Made by a program: the position numbers and the translations under genes
NCBI GenBank assembly: GCA_947625495.1
Contig: CANQOQ010000001.1
Coordinates: 124,001 to 188,000, forward strand
DNA from: Candidatus Gastranaerophilales bacterium
GTDB lineage: Bacteria; Cyanobacteriota; Vampirovibrionia; Gastranaerophilales; Gastranaerophilaceae
Reading direction: 5' to 3'
Length of the DNA stretch: 64,000 bases
The notes under the pieces: model-generated
Told to the model about the DNA's origin: nothing
Database searches by the model: none
What the model saw: the letters and a program-made list of their open reading frames with translations, nothing else
Part shown: positions 22,509 to 31,123 of the stretch, one piece after another
How positions within the stretch are numbered: position 1 is the stretch's first letter
How the letters are laid out: each line of letters begins with the position of its first letter

Positions 22509-22703
22509 CGGGATACTCTGCCGAAAAAAATGATTGAATATCATTTTGTGAGAGGTAGCAGCTTGGTCCCAAGCTCATTGAAATCTAAATAATAATACTT
22601 CGGGATGTAGCGCAGCTTGACTCTGCCGACGAAAACGATTGATAATCGTTTGAGGAGAGGTAGCACCGTAGGTGCGCTACAGTATGAAAACTAAATAATA
22701 TAT
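22509..22703 (+). repeat. Two truncated tRNA-Pro 5' copies interrupted by a 40-bp hairpin unit
   Basis: The first copy keeps only CGGGAT (22509-22514); the second keeps CGGGATGTAGCGCAGCTTG (22601-22619). Each is followed directly by a 40-nt unit (22515-22554 and 22620-22659) that starts ACTCTGCCGA and ends GAGAG, then GTAGCA. The units differ at about nine positions, yet the inner stem is kept: AAACGAT/ATCGTTT in one, AAATGAT/ATCATTT in the other, a compensatory C-G to T-A change. Downstream of each unit, a ctaaat-rich stretch also repeats before the next tRNA start. The units look like tandem, structure-conserved RNA or DNA elements. Confidence 0.75.
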
Positions 22704-22777
22704 CGGGATGTAGCGCAGCTTGGTAGCGCACCTCGCTTGGGACGAGGGGGTCGCAGGTTCAAATCCTGTCATCCCGA
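22704..22777 (+). tRNA. tRNA-Pro (anticodon TGG)
   Basis: A 74-nt cloverleaf. Acceptor CGGGATG pairs with CATCCCG, the D arm is GCGC..GCGC, anticodon stem CCTCG/CGAGG frames loop CTTGGGA with TGG at 22738-22740, and the T arm is GCAGG-TTCAAAT-CCTGT. A discriminator A follows and CCA is not encoded, so the CCA-adding enzyme is needed. The 3' end serves as the attachment core of the adjacent accessory region. Confidence 0.96.
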
Positions 22778-22782
22778 TTTCT
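22760..22782 (+). repeat. Attachment-site core within tRNA-Pro 3' end (copy 1)
   Basis: 23 bases running from the T-loop through the tRNA end into flanking TTTCT. The same 23 bases recur at 25181-25203 and 31101-31123, and decayed near 29816-29838. This is the classical pattern of integration into the 3' end of a tRNA gene: the intact tRNA at one end, direct repeats at the other. Confidence 0.85.
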
Positions 22783-23091: not shown

Positions 23092-23391
23092 CTACACACT
23101 TCTTGTACCTTTAGAACGACCTTTTTCATCATACATATATAAAGTACTTCCTCTTTTTATATTTATTGTGGCAGCACAACTATGAAACTCTCCGCTGCCA
23201 ACTGAAATTGTAGATAAAGAGTGTCCTTTTTCATCGTAAACATATAATGTTGAACCTCTTTTTACGCAAACAAATGATGATGAAAAACCGCATAAGCTAC
23301 CACTTCCAAGTGATATTGTACAGCTTGTTTGATTCTTTTCGTTGTAAACATACGCTGAACTTCCTCTTTGTACAACTGATGATATTGTCAT
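23092..23391 (-). CDS. RGS-repeat protein (three YVYDEKG repeats), 99 aa
   Basis: Three imperfect repeats of about 32 residues, each with the core (V/K)RGS-x-x-Y-(V/M)-Y-(D/N)-EKG or similar, followed by TIS-x-GSG. Single-repeat and multi-repeat proteins with an RGSTxYxYDEKGR core occur in many gut and oral bacteria (recalled, not searched), with unknown function. There is no signal peptide or membrane segment. AAAGGA precedes the ATG. It is the first cargo gene of the tRNA-Pro region. The short beta-hairpin repeat suggests a solenoid or binding protein. Confidence 0.75.
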   Translation of the reverse strand: MTISSVVQRGSSAYVYNEKNQTSCTISLGSGSLCGFSSSFVCVKRGSTLYVYDEKGHSLSTISVGSGEFHSCAATINIKRGSTLYMYDEKGRSKGTRSV

Positions 23392-23457: not shown

Positions 23458-24666
23458 TTATCCTTGCCAAGAATTTAAAGCATCTTTTAATTTTTCGATA
23501 TAGCCACATTCATCTAATTGTTTAGACAAATATTCTTTGATTTGCTCTGTATTTCCGTTAAATGAAGATAATTCTTCTTGTTCAATTAGTGTAACTGTTG
23601 GACTGTATGCCCATTCATTATTCCCATTAAATTTTTTAAAAGAAAAATAATTTCTTATGTGTTCAGTTAAGGCATTACGTCTTTCATAATTTTTTTCGGT
23701 TTTATCTTTTGGGGCACTGATAGCAATTTCAATATATAAAGGTTTTTTACCCCAATATAGTGAATGCAGATTGACAATCATACTATTTGAAAATTCACCA
23801 AATTTAAACTTTTCAACGTTATTAATGCCCTTAGGTAAAAATTTTACGGTATGCCCATCAACAATTATATTTTTATCAATGTCTGAACGTTCTTTTAATA
23901 CCTCTACAAATAGTTCAAAAATTTCAGCCCGATCGTCAGAATTTTCTATAATTAAATCAATGGCATCTTTATTTTCACGATATATTTTTCTACATAAGTC
24001 AATAATTTCTTTATCAGTTTCGCCCATAATATTCCTTTCTATCATTTTTTTGTAATGATTAATAAATATTTTTATGTCTTCATCAAATAAATAACCACAT
24101 TGTTTTGTTAAGTTGTTAATTGCTTTTAAAATGTCGCCATAATTTATTCTTATATATCCTTTGTAATCTTCGCAGGGTGAATATTTATGAGGAGTTAAAA
24201 ATAAAAAATATTTGTATTTATAATCCTTGTATTTATCGTGATTTAACACATATTTTTTATAGTCTTCTAATTGGTTACAGCCTTCTCCTGACCAGACTTT
24301 ATTTTCAATCACGCAGACTAATTTATTTCTCGGACAATCTATAAATATATCCATTCTTCTTCCGTCATTGGTCATTTTTTCTAATGTTATTTTTGCATCA
24401 GTTAAATCTTTTAATAAGATATTTACCAAACTGGTATCATTTCTTAATGCAATTTTTAGTAATTCTTTTAGAAAATTATCCATTAAATGATGGCTTTCAA
24501 ACGGTGTTAACAGCCAACCTAAAAAGTTAGAATGTTTGATTTCATTATTTTGCAATTTTAGCACTTTAAAAATATTAAACTCATTATTTGACTTTGTTTG
24601 TAGTTCTGCTAAATCATCAGACATTAATAATTGCAGTAATGCTTGCTTATGCTTTGTCTTTTCCAT
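23458..24666 (-). CDS. PD-(D/E)XK nuclease superfamily protein (PDDEXK_4 type)
   Basis: 402 aa. The N-terminal half carries a restriction-endonuclease-like core: NEIKHSNFLGWLL (Glu42), RMDIFID (Asp106), then CVIENKVWSGEG (Glu121, Lys123) and Gln132 in the following helix. That order (E, D, E-x-K, Q) fits PF14281-type proteins. The C-terminal half has no recognised domain. It is cytoplasmic, GAGG before the ATG. Related to the nuclease at 27557 in the neighbouring module. DNA cleavage in phage or plasmid defence is plausible but unproven. Confidence 0.82.
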   Translation of the reverse strand: MEKTKHKQALLQLLMSDDLAELQTKSNNEFNIFKVLKLQNNEIKHSNFLGWLLTPFESHHLMDNFLKELLKIALRNDTSLVNILLKDLTDAKITLEKMTNDGRRMDIFIDCPRNKLVCVIENKVWSGEGCNQLEDYKKYVLNHDKYKDYKYKYFLFLTPHKYSPCEDYKGYIRINYGDILKAINNLTKQCGYLFDEDIKIFINHYKKMIERNIMGETDKEIIDLCRKIYRENKDAIDLIIENSDDRAEIFELFVEVLKERSDIDKNIIVDGHTVKFLPKGINNVEKFKFGEFSNSMIVNLHSLYWGKKPLYIEIAISAPKDKTEKNYERRNALTEHIRNYFSFKKFNGNNEWAYSPTVTLIEQEELSSFNGNTEQIKEYLSKQLDECGYIEKLKDALNSWQG

Positions 24667-24868
24667 TATTACCTCGTCTTATACTTTTTGTTTTTTTGTT
24701 TAATCTTTTTCCAGAAGAACTTGAATAATGCACATGATAATAATATAGTAGCATTCGCATACGACAAATATGGACATATTAGAATGCGATATATTTTATT
24801 AAAATATATCAATTTGTACATACTGTCAATACGTATAAATTGTGCGTTATTACGTATACACTGTACGT
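24667..24868. promoter_or_regulatory. Divergent control region with palindrome and TACGTA operators
   Basis: Between the nuclease gene and the XRE pseudogene. A perfect 23-nt palindrome GATATATTTTATTAAAATATATC lies at 24788-24810 (20-nt core readable from either strand). Three TACGTA boxes lie at 24830-24835, 24851-24856 and 24864-24869, the last overlapping the pseudogene start. GCATTC/GAATGC (~24752 and ~24782) also face each other. The boxes are probable repressor operators for the adjacent XRE gene before it decayed. Confidence 0.55.
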
Positions 24869-25084: not shown

Positions 25085-25180
25085 TTTTTGTCATTAAACC
25101 GAAAAATCAAACTGTTTGTATTTATAGAACAAACTGTTTGTTTATTTGCAACGGCTCATATTTTCGCCTTGTTTGTCGTG

Positions 25181-25203
25181 CAAATCCTGTCATCCCGATT
25201 TCT
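25181..25203 (+). repeat. Attachment-site core (copy 2)
   Basis: Exact repeat of the tRNA-Pro 3' end without the rest of the tRNA. It is preceded by the right-end block cgccttgtttgtcgtg (25165-25180), also found directly before the core at 31101 and, slightly changed, before the decayed copy at 29816. Marks a junction between two modules. Confidence 0.85.
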
Positions 25204-25588
25204 CGTTGGCTCGCAGGTTCTCACGCTTCGTATATTTCTATTATATTTTCACACCCATTTCGATTATAACAGACAGTTTGATTTTTATGCCTGAAACCCC
25301 TAATTTTACGAGATTTTTTCTGTCGGAAATTTTCCGAAACAGGAAAAATCAGCTAACGCATACAGGTTCACAATTTTCAGCTTCGCTTCAAATGTTCACT
25401 TTGTAAAACTGGACAAGAACGGAATTTTATTACCCCAAAACGGACTCAAAATTTTTAAGCGAAAAATCAAGCTATGCCTGAAAAGAACTCATTAAAAGTT
25501 GTTTACTAATTATGTCTCATTTTTTTATTCGTTTTTATGACACAAAATGGCGTAGGTATAGTGCATAATAAAGTAAAAGGGACAAACA
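25204..25588. repeat. Element left-end sequence (copy 2), no gene
   Basis: 385 nt with no convincing gene. Just after the core and around 25411-25478 it matches the sequence following the intact tRNA (see copy 1). The middle is unrelated and contains ttttccgaaacaggaaa-type short inverted repeats. The last ~70 nt probably carry the promoter of the 105-aa gene (tatagt before a AAAGGG ribosome site). Confidence 0.6.
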
Positions 25589-25906
25589 ATGGTATTAGCT
25601 ATAAATAAATCAAAAGCAAAAAATGAAGATGTTATAAGACTTATAAAAACAAAATGGCTGAATATAAATTACACGAAACCAATACATTCATTAGTTATTC
25701 TCCTGAAAATAACAAAACATGTCAGTTTAGAAATATTGGTATCGCTTTATTATCCGTCTTTTGATGAAGGCTATTTGTCTTTAGGTTTTGAGTTTAATTA
25801 CAGATTAAAAAATATAGACCACAAAGGCATTGGTTTAATTATAAATCTTATCCTTTTTAAAATAGAGATAGAATGCACTGATGATAGGCACATAGAAGAT
25901 TATTGA
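25589..25906 (+). CDS. Hypothetical protein, 105 aa, in tRNA-Pro region
   Basis: Not recognised. AAAGGG 8 nt upstream of the ATG supports it as real. The protein is Ile/Leu/Lys-rich, without signal peptide, and alternates short hydrophobic strands (HSLVILLKITKHVSLEILVSL), suggesting a small mixed alpha/beta fold. It is followed after 75 nt by another orphan gene on the same strand. It could be an immunity- or toxin-type partner, but nothing in the sequence shows this. Confidence 0.5.
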   Translation: MVLAINKSKAKNEDVIRLIKTKWLNINYTKPIHSLVILLKITKHVSLEILVSLYYPSFDEGYLSLGFEFNYRLKNIDHKGIGLIINLILFKIEIECTDDRHIEDY

Positions 25907-25981: not shown

Positions 25982-26437
25982 ATGCAACAAGCAATTATAA
26001 ATGATGAATTAATGGGTGAAGAACAATTATATTATTTCGAAAATGATATCAGTTGGTATTATTGTAAATATTTTTCATTCAGAGAAGAATACTGTTATAT
26101 AGATACTGATAGAACTATTCAACAAAGTTGTTGTTTTCAGGAAAAATCTATTCTTCCGGATTATTACGATTGTAATTGCACTTATGATATATCTTTTAAA
26201 ACAATAAAAGATGAGAAATATGCCATATTAGAATTTCCGAATGTCATATATAAAATTCCTTTCAAATATTACAATAACATAATAGAAGCATTATATTGTG
26301 ATATATATGCTTACGATAATTCAGATAATTTAAATTATTCAAACTTTAAAAACAAACCTTTAATATTTATGGATAATGATGAAATTATAGGATGGATAGA
26401 ACCTTGTGCTTTTGAAGCTTACGCAAAGTATGTGTGA
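25982..26437 (+). CDS. Hypothetical protein, 151 aa, Tyr/Asp-rich, in tRNA-Pro region
   Basis: Not recognised. It is rich in Tyr, Asp, Asn and Cys (pairs CC at 50-51, CNC near 62) and acidic overall. There is no signal peptide or membrane segment. GAGGAGG at 25962-25968 is 13 nt from the ATG, which is unusually far, and no in-frame ATG/GTG/TTG lies closer, so the start is uncertain. Likely co-transcribed with the 105-aa gene. An acidic, aromatic composition could suit a DNA mimic or immunity protein, which is speculation. Confidence 0.5.
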   Translation: MQQAIINDELMGEEQLYYFENDISWYYCKYFSFREEYCYIDTDRTIQQSCCFQEKSILPDYYDCNCTYDISFKTIKDEKYAILEFPNVIYKIPFKYYNNIIEALYCDIYAYDNSDNLNYSNFKNKPLIFMDNDEIIGWIEPCAFEAYAKYV

Positions 26438-26614
26438 CGATTTTATCTTTAATTCTAACTTCTTTAGCAGCATTATTCAAGATTTTGTATGCTTGCTGCC
26501 GTAATAAAAAAACCTTTGTTCTTTCTTTAATTCATCATTCGGAACTTATATTATACGGTTTTTTATAAATTTAACCGTATAATAAAGCTCTTATGTTATA
26601 AAAATTTTATTTTT

Positions 26615-27448
26615 TTAAAAATCATAATCTATAATCGGCTCTAAAAATTTCATTATTGATGCTCTAAACAAAAGCTCTAATACAGATGTTGTACCATAAC
26701 TGTTTTTAGCTGTAATAATTTCGGCTTTTCCTCTATTTTCAACAATATCTCTGTTGTAATATTCGTCTCTGTATATAAATAAGACGATATCAGATATTGT
26801 TTCAATTGCGCCTGAATCTCGTAAATCGCAAAGCATTGGTCTTTTATCGCATCTGCTTTCTATAGCTCTGGATAATTGAGATAATACAAAAATTATACAA
26901 TTATTATTTAGCACAAGCTCTTTTAAACTTAGCATTATATCTTCAATTGCCTCATTTCTTTGTTTCGTTGCCGGTGTATCAAATAATTGCAGATAGTCGA
27001 TAAATACAATATCAGGCTTTTCTTGTTCAATTTTCTCTTTTATTCCTTCAATTTTTTGTACGTCATCAATAATTGTTAAATTAAATTTTGATAATTTCTC
27101 AAAAGCAGCCGAGATTTTTTCTTTTTCATTTTCATTAAGTTCTGTATTATTTCTTAATCTTGAAGAATCAACTTCTGCTATTGTCGGAATAATCCTTTTT
27201 ATAAAGTACCTATTGCTGCTTTGCAAAGAAAAATATAAACATTTTTTATTCTGTTCCAAGAACTTTAACATAATTGAAACGGCAAATGAGGTTTTACCCA
27301 TGGCAGGTCTTCCCCCGATTGTTATTATGCTTGATTTTTCGACAAATGCCAATAATATATCCAAATCTCTAAACCCTGTTTGAAATTGAGGTTCTTGCGG
27401 TTCTAAAATTTGATTTTTAACTTTTTCCAGTAATTCTTTTTCTATCAT
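26615..27448 (-). CDS. DnaB-like RecA-fold ATPase, C-terminal domain only
   Basis: 277 aa from the start chosen at 27448, where AGGAGG lies 7 nt upstream; a longer in-frame start at 27490 is unlikely. Walker A GGRPAMGKTS (about 45-54), Walker B DIVFIDYLQL and the SQLSRAIESRCDKRP motif with a D-x-RDSGAIE element match the helicase half of DnaB. The N-terminal DnaB domain needed for DnaG contact and normal hexamer collar is absent, as is the ~180 residues that hold it. Divergent from the nuclease-WYL pair. Likely a mobile-element or accessory ATPase, not the host replicative helicase. Confidence 0.85.
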   Translation of the reverse strand: MIEKELLEKVKNQILEPQEPQFQTGFRDLDILLAFVEKSSIITIGGRPAMGKTSFAVSIMLKFLEQNKKCLYFSLQSSNRYFIKRIIPTIAEVDSSRLRNNTELNENEKEKISAAFEKLSKFNLTIIDDVQKIEGIKEKIEQEKPDIVFIDYLQLFDTPATKQRNEAIEDIMLSLKELVLNNNCIIFVLSQLSRAIESRCDKRPMLCDLRDSGAIETISDIVLFIYRDEYYNRDIVENRGKAEIITAKNSYGTTSVLELLFRASIMKFLEPIIDYDF

Positions 27449-27556
27449 GATTAATCCTCCTGTTTTTATTATTACTCGCACCCATGTCAAAATATGTCGT
27501 AGATGTGTGGTAGAATAAAAATGTTAGGAAAATTAAGGTAAATCAAGGAGAATAAA

Positions 27557-28648
27557 GTGGATAAAAAAGGAATTCTTGGCAGTATAGAAGAATTATCCAA
27601 AGATGCAATGTTTTTAATGTCTTTAACATCAAGAGAATTGTTTCATAGTAATGTGTGGGCTTGGATGATTAGAAAATATCCGAGTATTTTTACATCCGTT
27701 TTTTATCCAAAATATGATGGAATAAGTACAGTTGAAGTTTTTAGAGAAGAAAAACATTATGATTTTCTGTTGAAAATAAATGATAAACATATAATTATTG
27801 AAAATAAATTTAAATGTATGCCAAATAAAAAACAACTAAAAAAGTACTATGATGAATGTAAGAAAGAAAAAAAAGAAATTACATTAATCAGTTATTTTAA
27901 ACCAACTTTTTCATTATCGGATATGAATATGAATGGGGATGATTATTCCTATGAAGTTATAAAAAACGGATTACTAGAAGCTTTGGAAAAATCAAATTTA
28001 TCAAAACAATCAGATGATTATGTAATAATTAACAACTATATTAAATTTTTGGGCTTATTAAATAATCTAAAAAATAGTATTATTATTAATTCAGACGATA
28101 AAATAGGTAAATTAATGGAAATAATCAAGGATTCGGATATACAAAAAGAAGCAGAAAAGATAAATTTTTCTAAAACCATTGAAAGAATTTTTATTTCAAA
28201 ATTAACTGAAGCTGTATTGGAAGATTTTAAATTTAAGGAACAAATAGATGAAATACGTATTGATTGCGGCAGAGATTTAAACGTATTTAGTGATATTCTT
28301 TTTTATTTTGGAGCTTGGGATGAAAATTATAACGACAAAAATTTGTGTTATCTTGGCATAAGTTTATGGGGTAATAATTATCGCTATTATGCAGGATTGA
28401 AAAAAGGAGAAAAAAACAAGAACAAGGAAGAAGGATACGATTATCTTAAGAATAACTATGGAGATTTTTTTGAACAAGAAAAAAACGAAGGAAAATGGGG
28501 CGGTTATAACAACAAAACAGAAATGTATTTATATAAAAAAATTAATATATCAGATTACACCGTAAAAGACTTAAAGAACAAAGTTCAAAATGATTTAGAA
28601 AAAGCACTTTCATATAGAAAAAGGATAGATAATGTCACGATTAAATAA
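27557..28648 (+). CDS. PD-(D/E)XK nuclease-like protein (PDDEXK_4 type), paired with WYL gene
   Basis: 363 aa, GTG start with AAGGAG 6 nt upstream. Nuclease core: RELFHSNVWAWMI (Glu27), HYDFLLKI (Asp69), IIIENKFKC (Glu82, Lys84) and Gln93 in the next helix. The same order and context as the 23458 protein, so the two are distant paralogues. The C-terminal ~240 residues are unassigned and may sense substrate. The WYL gene starts 17 nt before this stop, so the two proteins are likely made together. A defence role is inference from the family pairing. Confidence 0.8.
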   Translation: MDKKGILGSIEELSKDAMFLMSLTSRELFHSNVWAWMIRKYPSIFTSVFYPKYDGISTVEVFREEKHYDFLLKINDKHIIIENKFKCMPNKKQLKKYYDECKKEKKEITLISYFKPTFSLSDMNMNGDDYSYEVIKNGLLEALEKSNLSKQSDDYVIINNYIKFLGLLNNLKNSIIINSDDKIGKLMEIIKDSDIQKEAEKINFSKTIERIFISKLTEAVLEDFKFKEQIDEIRIDCGRDLNVFSDILFYFGAWDENYNDKNLCYLGISLWGNNYRYYAGLKKGEKNKNKEEGYDYLKNNYGDFFEQEKNEGKWGGYNNKTEMYLYKKINISDYTVKDLKNKVQNDLEKALSYRKRIDNVTIK

Positions 28649-29603
28649 AGCAGAGCAGATAATAGAGCTTGCTATGATGTTTCAAAACAGCTTCACAGGG
28701 CTTTGTATTGATGATATTCAAGAGCATTTTGAATGTTCAAGGCGCTCGGCTGAACGGATGAAAACATTATTATTTGAAATGTTCCCTGAAAAAATCGAAG
28801 AAGTACCGTCATTTGACAAGAAAAAGTACTGGCGTTTTGTAAAAGGTACAATGAACTCTTTAATTTCCTTTTCGGTTGATGATTTTGCAAATTTAGAGTA
28901 TTTAAGAGGACTATCGGCTGATGAAAATCGCAAAAAACAGCTTGATGAATTGATATTAAAAATAAAGGCATTGACTCCTCAAAAAAATGCAAGAGCCTTG
29001 GAAAATGATATTGAAGCAGTTATAGAATCTGAGGGCTTTGCCGTAAGACAATATTCAAGGATAAAAGCAGACCCAAAAACTATGGAAATGCTTAGGTGTG
29101 CAATGCTTTCATTAAAAAAAACTATGTTTGATTATCTTACTGACAAAGGAAACCGCAAAATCACTTTAAATCCTTATGGTGTGATAATTTCAGATAAATA
29201 CTATCTTGTCGGGTTTAATGAGTATGTAAATGATTTGAGGCTTTATAGGGTTGATAAAATAAAAAATCTTGAAATTATTGAAGAATATTTTGAAAAAGAT
29301 GAAAAGTTCTCACTGCAGGAATATTGTAATAAATCGTTTTCAATATACAAGGAAGAACCCATTAATGTTGTATTGGAATTTGATAAATCAGTAGCAGAGG
29401 ATGTTTTAAACTATCATTTTCATCCCACGCAAAAAATTAAACGGCTTGATAGCGGTAATATTGAAATAAAATTTACCTCCGGCGGAACTCAAGCAATATG
29501 CTATGAACTCTTTAAATGGGGTACGAATGTAAAAATCAAAAAACCAAATAAATTAAAAGAGCTCTATAAAATTTATATAAAAAATGTTTTAGATAATTTT
29601 TAG
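28632..29603 (+). CDS. WYL-domain transcriptional regulator
   Basis: 323 aa. N-terminal winged helix (about 1-75; DDIQEHFECSRRSAERM is the recognition region), a linker, then a WYL domain near 177-215 (TLNPYGVIISDKYYLVGF, RLYRVDKIKNLEI; the signature W-Y-L is Y-Y-L here) and a C-terminal WCX-like extension ending FKWGTNVKIKKP. WYL proteins sense nucleic-acid ligands and regulate defence loci in many bacteria. AAAGGA 6 nt before the ATG inside the nuclease gene makes a coupled two-gene operon; it probably controls that nuclease. Confidence 0.88.
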   Translation: MSRLNKAEQIIELAMMFQNSFTGLCIDDIQEHFECSRRSAERMKTLLFEMFPEKIEEVPSFDKKKYWRFVKGTMNSLISFSVDDFANLEYLRGLSADENRKKQLDELILKIKALTPQKNARALENDIEAVIESEGFAVRQYSRIKADPKTMEMLRCAMLSLKKTMFDYLTDKGNRKITLNPYGVIISDKYYLVGFNEYVNDLRLYRVDKIKNLEIIEEYFEKDEKFSLQEYCNKSFSIYKEEPINVVLEFDKSVAEDVLNYHFHPTQKIKRLDSGNIEIKFTSGGTQAICYELFKWGTNVKIKKPNKLKELYKIYIKNVLDNF

Positions 29604-29981
29604 TTATTTTTATAAAATAAGCATCAACCCAAAAAGTGTAAACGTGAAATGCTGAAATACTGTATTGGTAATATATAGAGATGTGTCAGGTTCATATCTT
29701 TATCATAGCAACATCAAACCAACTGTTCAAAATAATCAAACTGCAAGTTCTTGTACAAAAATCTACTCACCTGACCCGTCAAACTACGGCTCATTCCTTC
29801 GCCTTGTTTGTCATGCAAATACTGTCATTAGATGCAGATTTATTTAAATACCGTTAAATGAAGATTTTACACAAAAGATTAATATGAACATGTGGAATCT
29901 TACATACTAACATATATTTAAAAAGTAAAATTCCAAGAAAAGAATTACTAAATAATTTAACTTATTAAATTTTGTAAAATA
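29604..29981. repeat. Gene-free stretch with decayed right-end repeat and attachment core (copy 3)
   Basis: 378 nt without a gene. From about 29764 to 29815 it repeats the right-end block found before the core at 31101 (ctcacctgac.cg.caaactacggctcattcc..cgccttgtttgtc). At 29816-29838 it continues into a damaged core (CAAAT.CTGTCAT then diverging). This separates the nuclease-WYL module from the DUF362 module. Confidence 0.7.
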
Positions 29982-30866
29982 TTAATCGGTAGAAATAATT
30001 TCATAATCTCTGTTTCCGAGTCCGAGCGTGTATGCGGCTTCAACAGTATGGATACCGTGTCTTGAATTCATTCTTTCAATCAAAGCTTTTTTCCCTTCAT
30101 CGGGAGAATTTATTACTGCGTCATAGCAGGCTTGATCAATGGCAACCGGATCTAAAGAAGCAAAAATTCCGATGTCATCCATTTCGGGTTCGGCAGGATG
30201 TGAGTCGCAGTCACAATCAACTGATAATCTGTTTGCAATGTTAATATAAACCATATTTTCTTTACCCATAAACTCGATAACAGATTTACTTGCATCTGCC
30301 ATCGACTCTAAAAAGTCATCTTGCTTTGGTAAATTATCAAATAATTTAGATGCTTGGGTTGTTACAGCTGCAGTATGAATATTGGTTTTTCCTGCTGTTG
30401 AAGCTATTCCTATACTGATATTTTTGAGTGCTCCGCCAAAACCTGCCATAAGATGACCTTTAAAATGTGATAAAACAAGTATTGAAGAATAGTTTTTTAA
30501 GTGTTCTCCAACATAATTTTCTTTTAAATGGAATCCGTTATTTACTATAAGAGGCATATCATTTGTTTCATCCATAATGTCACAAGGTGCAATGGCCTTA
30601 AATCCGTGGTCTTCCATTACCTTCCAATGTTCTTTAGGATCCATTCTTTTGCCTTCATAAGCGGTACAGCATTCAACAATAGTACCGTTGACTTTGTTAA
30701 CAAGGTCTTTTATTAAAGAAGGTTTTAAAAAGTTATGACCGCCGGGTTCTCCCGTCGATAATTTTACGGCAACTTTATTTTTTAGTGTTACTCCTAATTT
30801 ATTATATATTTTAATCAAGCTTTGAGGGGTAATTTCTTTTGTAAAATAAACTTTTGATTTTGTCAT
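29982..30866 (-). CDS. DUF362 domain protein
   Basis: 294 aa. The family signature is clear: KVAVKLSTGEPGGHNFL near the N-terminus, SHFKGHLMAGFGGALKNISIG in the middle and the metal-binding-like CDCDSHPAEPEMDDIGIFASLDPVAID near 212. DUF362 proteins often carry a ferredoxin-like 4Fe-4S domain; none is present here, the Cys residues being limited to a few. Function is unproven; Fe-S or quinone-related redox roles are proposed for relatives. GGTGAG precedes the ATG. It lies alone between two attachment repeats, so it may be cargo or a pre-existing gene caught between insertions. Confidence 0.85.
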   Translation of the reverse strand: MTKSKVYFTKEITPQSLIKIYNKLGVTLKNKVAVKLSTGEPGGHNFLKPSLIKDLVNKVNGTIVECCTAYEGKRMDPKEHWKVMEDHGFKAIAPCDIMDETNDMPLIVNNGFHLKENYVGEHLKNYSSILVLSHFKGHLMAGFGGALKNISIGIASTAGKTNIHTAAVTTQASKLFDNLPKQDDFLESMADASKSVIEFMGKENMVYINIANRLSVDCDCDSHPAEPEMDDIGIFASLDPVAIDQACYDAVINSPDEGKKALIERMNSRHGIHTVEAAYTLGLGNRDYEIISTD

Positions 30867-31018: not shown

Positions 31019-31123
31019 GTGATTTTCTTCGGCTTCGCCTTGAAATTCTGCTCACCTGACACGCCAAACTACGGCTCATTCCTTCGCCTTGTTTGTCGTG
31101 CAAATCCTGTCATCCCGATTTCT
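31019..31123 (+). repeat. Element right end and attachment core (copy 4, outer boundary)
   Basis: Contains gattttcttcggcttcgcc (also just after the intact tRNA), then the right-end block ctcacctgacacgccaaact.. and cgccttgtttgtcgtg, then the intact core at 31101-31123. Ten bases beyond lies the accC stop, so this is the outer limit of the accessory region and the return to core genome. Confidence 0.85.

Follow-up and report, generated by a model that had tools for sequence, protein, structure and literature searches.

A candidate defence island at tRNA-Pro in Gastranaerophilales with exchangeable nucleases and a predicted DriD-like WYL switch

The stretch of DNA analysed here (the window, 64 kb of the 1.88 Mb genome G000 of a Candidatus Gastranaerophilales bacterium) carries two overlapping genes on its forward strand. 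The first, 27557..28648 (+), begins with a GTG codon and encodes a 363-aa protein that we call NUC; the second, 28632..29603 (+), encodes a 323-aa WYL-domain regulator, referred to below as WYL. An earlier note on this locus, made from the sequence alone, had described the 17-nt overlap (28632-28648) and a PD-(D/E)XK nuclease motif consisting of E27, D69, E82-x-K84 and Q93, and both descriptions hold. Among 67 homologues, down to ~20% identity, no substitution occurs at E27, N83 or Q93, and the conservation of D69, E82 and K84 is 90% or higher; conservation on this scale means that the motif is not a chance occurrence. D69 is absent from some relatives. NUC scores 22.2 bits against the Pfam family PDDEXK_4 (PF14281), for which the cut-off is 22.3, and matches two PADLOC models of the PDC-S26 family at 5.7e-10 and 1e-8. 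It appears to be a divergent member of this PDDEXK_4/PDC-S26 family and is predicted to be an active nuclease. As a defence family PDC-S26 itself has only candidate status, and our literature searches turned up no paper that names either PDC-S26 or PF14281.

The AlphaFold model of NUC is confident (pLDDT 91.6) and divides the protein in two. Residues ~6-164 form the predicted nuclease domain and resemble restriction-endonuclease-like folds, the best structural match being the small subunit of R.BspD6I (Z 8.2, 3.0 Å over 117 residues), followed by N.BspD6I (Z 7.5), EndoMS (7.4), MspJI (6.8) and LmuA (6.5). Foldseek returned no match to the model at E <0.001 and a sequence search of the PDB found no relatives of NUC. 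The C-terminal ~240 residues had been regarded as unassigned, which is not wholly the case: the second of the PDC-S26 matches, to model PDLC04983, spans residues 56-349, and residues ~180-362 are confidently predicted to form an alpha/beta domain. The structure prediction proposed in the earlier note gives a fold for this region and stops short of a function, since the structural matches (the C-terminal domain of T4 MotA, Spa15 and other secretion chaperones, and YbjN) are too weak, at Z 4-5.4, to name one. In one related locus (L084:7112-7645; L numbers denote the loci studied) a copy of NUC appears to have lost its nuclease domain while the start and the C-terminal domain remain in frame, a possible sign that the C-terminus has a role of its own.

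The second gene product is indeed a WYL-domain protein. It has significant matches to the WYL (PF13280, 3.2e-9) and WCX (PF25583, 4.5e-6) domains, preceded by a winged helix-turn-helix with the recognition helix RRSAERM. In a profile search of the PDB its best matches are to full-length DriD at 2e-40, the chain being taken as DriD by inference from its residue numbering. DriD of Caulobacter crescentus is a WYL activator that is stimulated by single-stranded DNA (ssDNA) bound in its WYL domain (PMC12340889; PDB 8tp8, 9pfq). The two proteins share the wHTH-WYL-WCX architecture, similarity over their full length and an RRxAERM recognition helix. The residues through which DriD contacts RNA polymerase are partly kept, as far as an inferred residue mapping can tell: Gly18 and Ala20, which contact the beta subunit, align with Asn19 and Phe21, and of the alpha-CTD contacts R121, R122, P125 and E128, R121 and E128 are kept and the other two are changed. 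These contacts are known for a single DriD and do not clearly define DriD-like activators as a class.

Both genes lie in an accessory region borne by a tRNA gene, as had been noted. The presumed integration target is tRNA-Pro(TGG) at 22703..22778 (+). Its 3' end, with the last bases just past the tRNA, forms an att-like core, CAAATCCTGTCATCCCGATTTCT, at 22760..22782 (+), and this core recurs exactly at 25181..25203 (+), in degenerate form at 29816..29838 (+) and again exactly at 31101..31123 (+). The three downstream copies have a common preceding sequence (at 25151, 29786 and 31071) that is absent from the tRNA. We read the island as three tandem elements delimited by repeats of the 3' end of tRNA-Pro, the right ends of the elements being these three copies in order; NUC and WYL are carried by the second. 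No integrase was recognised within the window island, and the elements may owe their movement to functions supplied from outside. A search for an empty island site did not find one, relatives with the gene neighbouring element 3 mostly having it in other surroundings; at L208 that gene again lies ~2 kb from a tRNA-Pro. At several related loci (L019:7123-8239, L020, L069, L083 and L088) genes for a 187-201-aa tyrosine recombinase-like protein and a 71-aa HTH protein stand divergent from the nuclease array, and these could be a mobility module.

Element 1 contains a second nuclease gene, 23458..24666 (-), which the earlier note did not mention and which is a stronger member of the same family than NUC (PF14281 3.9e-30, PDC-S26 8e-69). 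It is accompanied by a 99-aa repeat protein, 23092..23391 (-), whose relatives adjoin PDC-S26 genes at other loci. This small protein, with repeat lines such as KRGSTLYVYDEKG, has relatives at 12 of 44 loci, mostly beside PDC-S26 nucleases and including L065:4875-5168, a copy for which no family was found; it may be a partner or an inhibitor. Element 3 carries a gene at 29982-30866. Besides NUC and WYL, element 2 carries a 105-aa ORF at 25589..25906 (+), which recurs at 13/44 loci, a 151-aa ORF at 25982..26437 (+), for which no family was found, and a gene likewise missing from the earlier description, 26615..27448 (-), which is divergent from NUC and encodes a RecA-fold ATPase consisting of a DnaB_C domain only (PF03796, 7.6e-63). 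Its ATG start at 27448 lies behind AGGAGG. At 26507..26620 (-) is the remnant of a reverse transcriptase gene, 38 residues from near the N-terminus at 89% identity. At other loci the reverse transcriptase gene comes after DnaB_C; the full 287-aa protein, with a YVDD motif, is found at L062:5355-6218 and at 13 other loci (PF00078 2.8e-21; PADLOC RT_II-A 4e-49). A DnaB_C-only gene is present at all 15 loci with a reverse transcriptase, the window remnant counted, and the two may form a retron-like pair of a kind that is not known to have been described. Rfam scans of four loci returned tRNA as the sole family and no known retron RNA.

How NUC and WYL are associated elsewhere bears on the proposal of the earlier note that they make up a self-contained two-gene defence cassette, in which WYL would serve NUC only. 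Orthologues of WYL recur across Gastranaerophilales; among 383 genomes of the family they have 65-92% identity and are clearly separate from paralogues, which fall below 50%; we studied 44 loci with an orthologue, the window included. The pair is real and recurrent: the search across genomes that had been suggested finds NUC and WYL together repeatedly, beside known or candidate defence genes, and a translational overlap of 13-17 nt is retained in several genera, as a cassette would lead one to expect. It is not an obligate pair. NUC is present at only 13 of the 44 WYL loci, while other PDC-S26 genes are present at 21, and the neighbours of WYL vary, with a homologue of UzuA (Uzume), a PD-T4-3 homologue, a PvuRts1I-like SRA nuclease, WG-repeat and SMC-type proteins and an ApeA-like HEPN protein among the cargo. 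Close relatives of NUC belong to Candidatus Gastranaerophilales; outside this order its homologues span many phyla and mostly lack a WYL gene nearby: among the loci examined, just four (L143, L165, L172 and L177) have one within 2 kb. No relative turned up when viral contigs were scanned for WYL. Together with further predicted operators before other operons of the island, described below, this distribution makes a regulator dedicated to NUC highly improbable. Of the earlier reading, the idea of a WYL-regulated candidate defence nuclease is supported; that the system is self-contained and made of two genes is probably wrong. A better description is probably a DriD-like WYL switch in control of a mobile island with changing cargo, the NUC-WYL pair being one configuration of this island.

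In a set of 70 non-redundant proteins, each encoded upstream of the WYL gene or following an operator site, 29 have a match to PDDEXK_4 and 31 to a single PDC-S26 model. Members of this family share the PD-(D/E)XK motif and a family profile reaching over the C-terminus; NUC differs in being divergent, in being followed by the WYL gene and in standing sometimes in arrays of several paralogues. At L018, L075 and L029/L021, at least two different PDDEXK_4 nucleases stand in tandem before WYL, and such rows suggest accretion of paralogues.

WYL genes that are not overlapped by the cargo usually have an inverted repeat upstream. A palindromic motif search of 29 WYL-upstream regions from other genomes, which left the window out of the training, yielded AAcTAcGTCAnaatnTGACgTAgTT (TAyGwC-N7-GwCrTA) with a log-likelihood of 209.5, compared with 40.6-52.0 in eight dinucleotide shuffles. 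When the resulting matrix was applied to the 64-kb window, its three best sites all fell inside the island, each upstream of an island gene. The best, ACCCATGTCAAAATATGTCGTAGAT at 27480..27504 (22.0 bits), lies between the divergent NUC and DnaB_C genes and is followed at +19 from its centre by TAGAAT, preceded by TGG, towards NUC and by AATAAT towards DnaB_C. The second, at 24757..24781 (19.3 bits), is upstream of the PDC-S26 gene and has a less canonical -10 box, TACTAT, at +19. The third, at 25533..25557 (16.9 bits), is centred 44 bp upstream of the start of the 105-aa ORF, with CATAAT at +19. The next best site scores 11.7 bits, and the 55.4 kb of the window outside the island contain none above 12.4. 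Once the stretches used for training are set aside, 464 kb of WYL loci contain 56 sites that score above 14 bits, and 235 kb of control loci contain none. Genome-wide counts of the IUPAC pattern with one or two mismatches gave no excess over a control pattern, in genomes with or without a WYL orthologue; because such patterns are too lax, we used the matrix scans of the studied loci alone.

Of 51 site-to-gene promoters, 31 match TATAAT in at least 5/6 positions at an offset of exactly +19 from the site centre, and no other offset tested gives more than 9. Forty-three promoters have a -10 box at this position, and in none of them does the match to a -35 box (17-bp spacer) exceed 2/6. The sites are centred near -31, where the -35 box would be. 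This is the arrangement reported for DriD, whose target consensus is ATACGAC-N7-GTCGTAT and whose site overlaps a poor -35 box and keeps a constant distance from the -10 box (PMC12340889). The predicted site shares with DriD the half-sites and spacing of TACGAC-N7-GTCGTA as well as this position, and in both cases several promoters appear to be controlled. The correspondence in half-sites, spacing and placement leads us to judge activation likelier than repression.

The WYL regulators of defence systems in the literature considered here, BrxR and CapW, are repressors of the neighbouring system or island (PMC9122601, PMC9122588) and are released by ssDNA (PMC13373217), and WYL could in the same way hold down the promoters identified here until ssDNA frees them, the island being otherwise as we propose. 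Like WYL, they stand beside diverse defence systems, and they act at inverted repeats, as is predicted for WYL, the repeat of BrxR having 11 bp with a 5-bp spacer (PMC9122601), and a dimer sitting over the -35 position could exclude polymerase as readily as recruit it. However, CapW sites overlap the -10 box (PMC9122588) and BrxR has its repeat downstream of the promoter (PMC9122601), whereas the predicted operator here does neither and is fixed 19 bp from the -10 box; the WYL gene is, in addition, 3' of its cargo. Since the site replaces the -35 box, a promoter freed of its repressor would be weak. Sequence and profile searches also led to DriD and to no chain labelled BrxR or CapW (profile matches to E 0.1), a missing match that does not in itself exclude such kinship. 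Other points weigh against our reading: the polymerase contacts of DriD are only partly kept, loose genome-wide counts show no excess, and DriD does not act on its own gene, whereas here a predicted site precedes the regulator's own gene or operon. By analogy with the closest solved structure and its target sites, an activator is nevertheless more likely than the sensor-repressor of the earlier note, and we regard the repressor as unlikely, if the most credible of the alternatives.

We therefore favor, at somewhat better than even confidence, a model in which the locus is a tandem defence island borne by tRNA-Pro with WYL acting in the manner of DriD as an ssDNA-triggered activator. Starting from what can be read in the DNA (the genes, the catalytic motif, the operator and its placement, the swapping of cargo and the att-like repeats), we envision that ssDNA, arising when phages replicate or DNA is damaged, binds the WYL domain, and that the WYL dimer then binds the palindrome over the missing -35 box and recruits RNA polymerase to the -10 box at its fixed distance. 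This would switch on NUC together with the WYL gene itself, in positive autoregulation. The same would hold for the divergent DnaB_C gene, for the PDC-S26 nuclease nearby and for the 105-aa ORF. The nucleases would be effectors attacking foreign or replicating DNA; no modification enzyme stands beside them, so they must presumably stay off until needed. Any incoming cassette with a copy of the palindrome would join the WYL regulon, which would explain why swapped cargo is found beside a conserved WYL. A more elaborate version, to which we give slightly less than even confidence, makes the ssDNA-activated WYL the master switch of a plug-in regulon, in which mobile cassettes inserted at one tRNA bring their own copies of the site while only one of them brings WYL, and in which phage ssDNA co-activates the nucleases and, at many loci, the reverse transcriptase-DnaB_C pair.

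The defence function is suggested by gene families and context only. On DNA damage DriD drives an endonuclease (bapE), recJ and dnaG (PMC12340889), and a mobile element might keep WYL and nucleases for its own upkeep or for DNA repair after damage, with phage defence secondary or absent. The att-like repeats at the tRNA and the DnaB_C gene would suit such an element. The cargo, in contrast, includes homologues of named or candidate anti-phage genes, and an integrase was not recognised in the window island; we consider this explanation improbable, somewhat more so than repression. Under the favored model, the difference from DriD would be one of output, WYL controlling a mobile island of candidate defence nucleases and DriD a set of damage-response genes.

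If the favored model is correct, a DriD-like activator with a common site before every operon would show how new effectors can join an existing control circuit and would link ssDNA sensing directly to the switching on of defence, through an activator that differs from the repressors BrxR and CapW. CapK+CapS and CapH+CapP (PMC13373217) are likewise modular switches that respond to ssDNA or damage and accompany diverse immune operons; they are unrelated proteins and repressors. The site motif would in addition help to locate more defence genes in a bacterial order that has been little studied. In the genome of the window itself, an operator-like site at L108 (G000:C7, 3895-3919) scores 13.1 bits by matrix, matches the pattern exactly and lies between divergent genes. 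It is flanked by what we read as a HipA-like gene and by small genes, one of which resembles a 118-aa gene downstream of WYL at L065, L072 and L076. A whole family of DriD-like regulators may exist in Gastranaerophilales, judging from paralogous WYL genes: at L214-L228 there are several of these (<50% identity), each with a DriD-type palindrome ~40-75 bp upstream, and most of the paralogous genes examined have the same site plus a -10 box (TATAAT) at +19.
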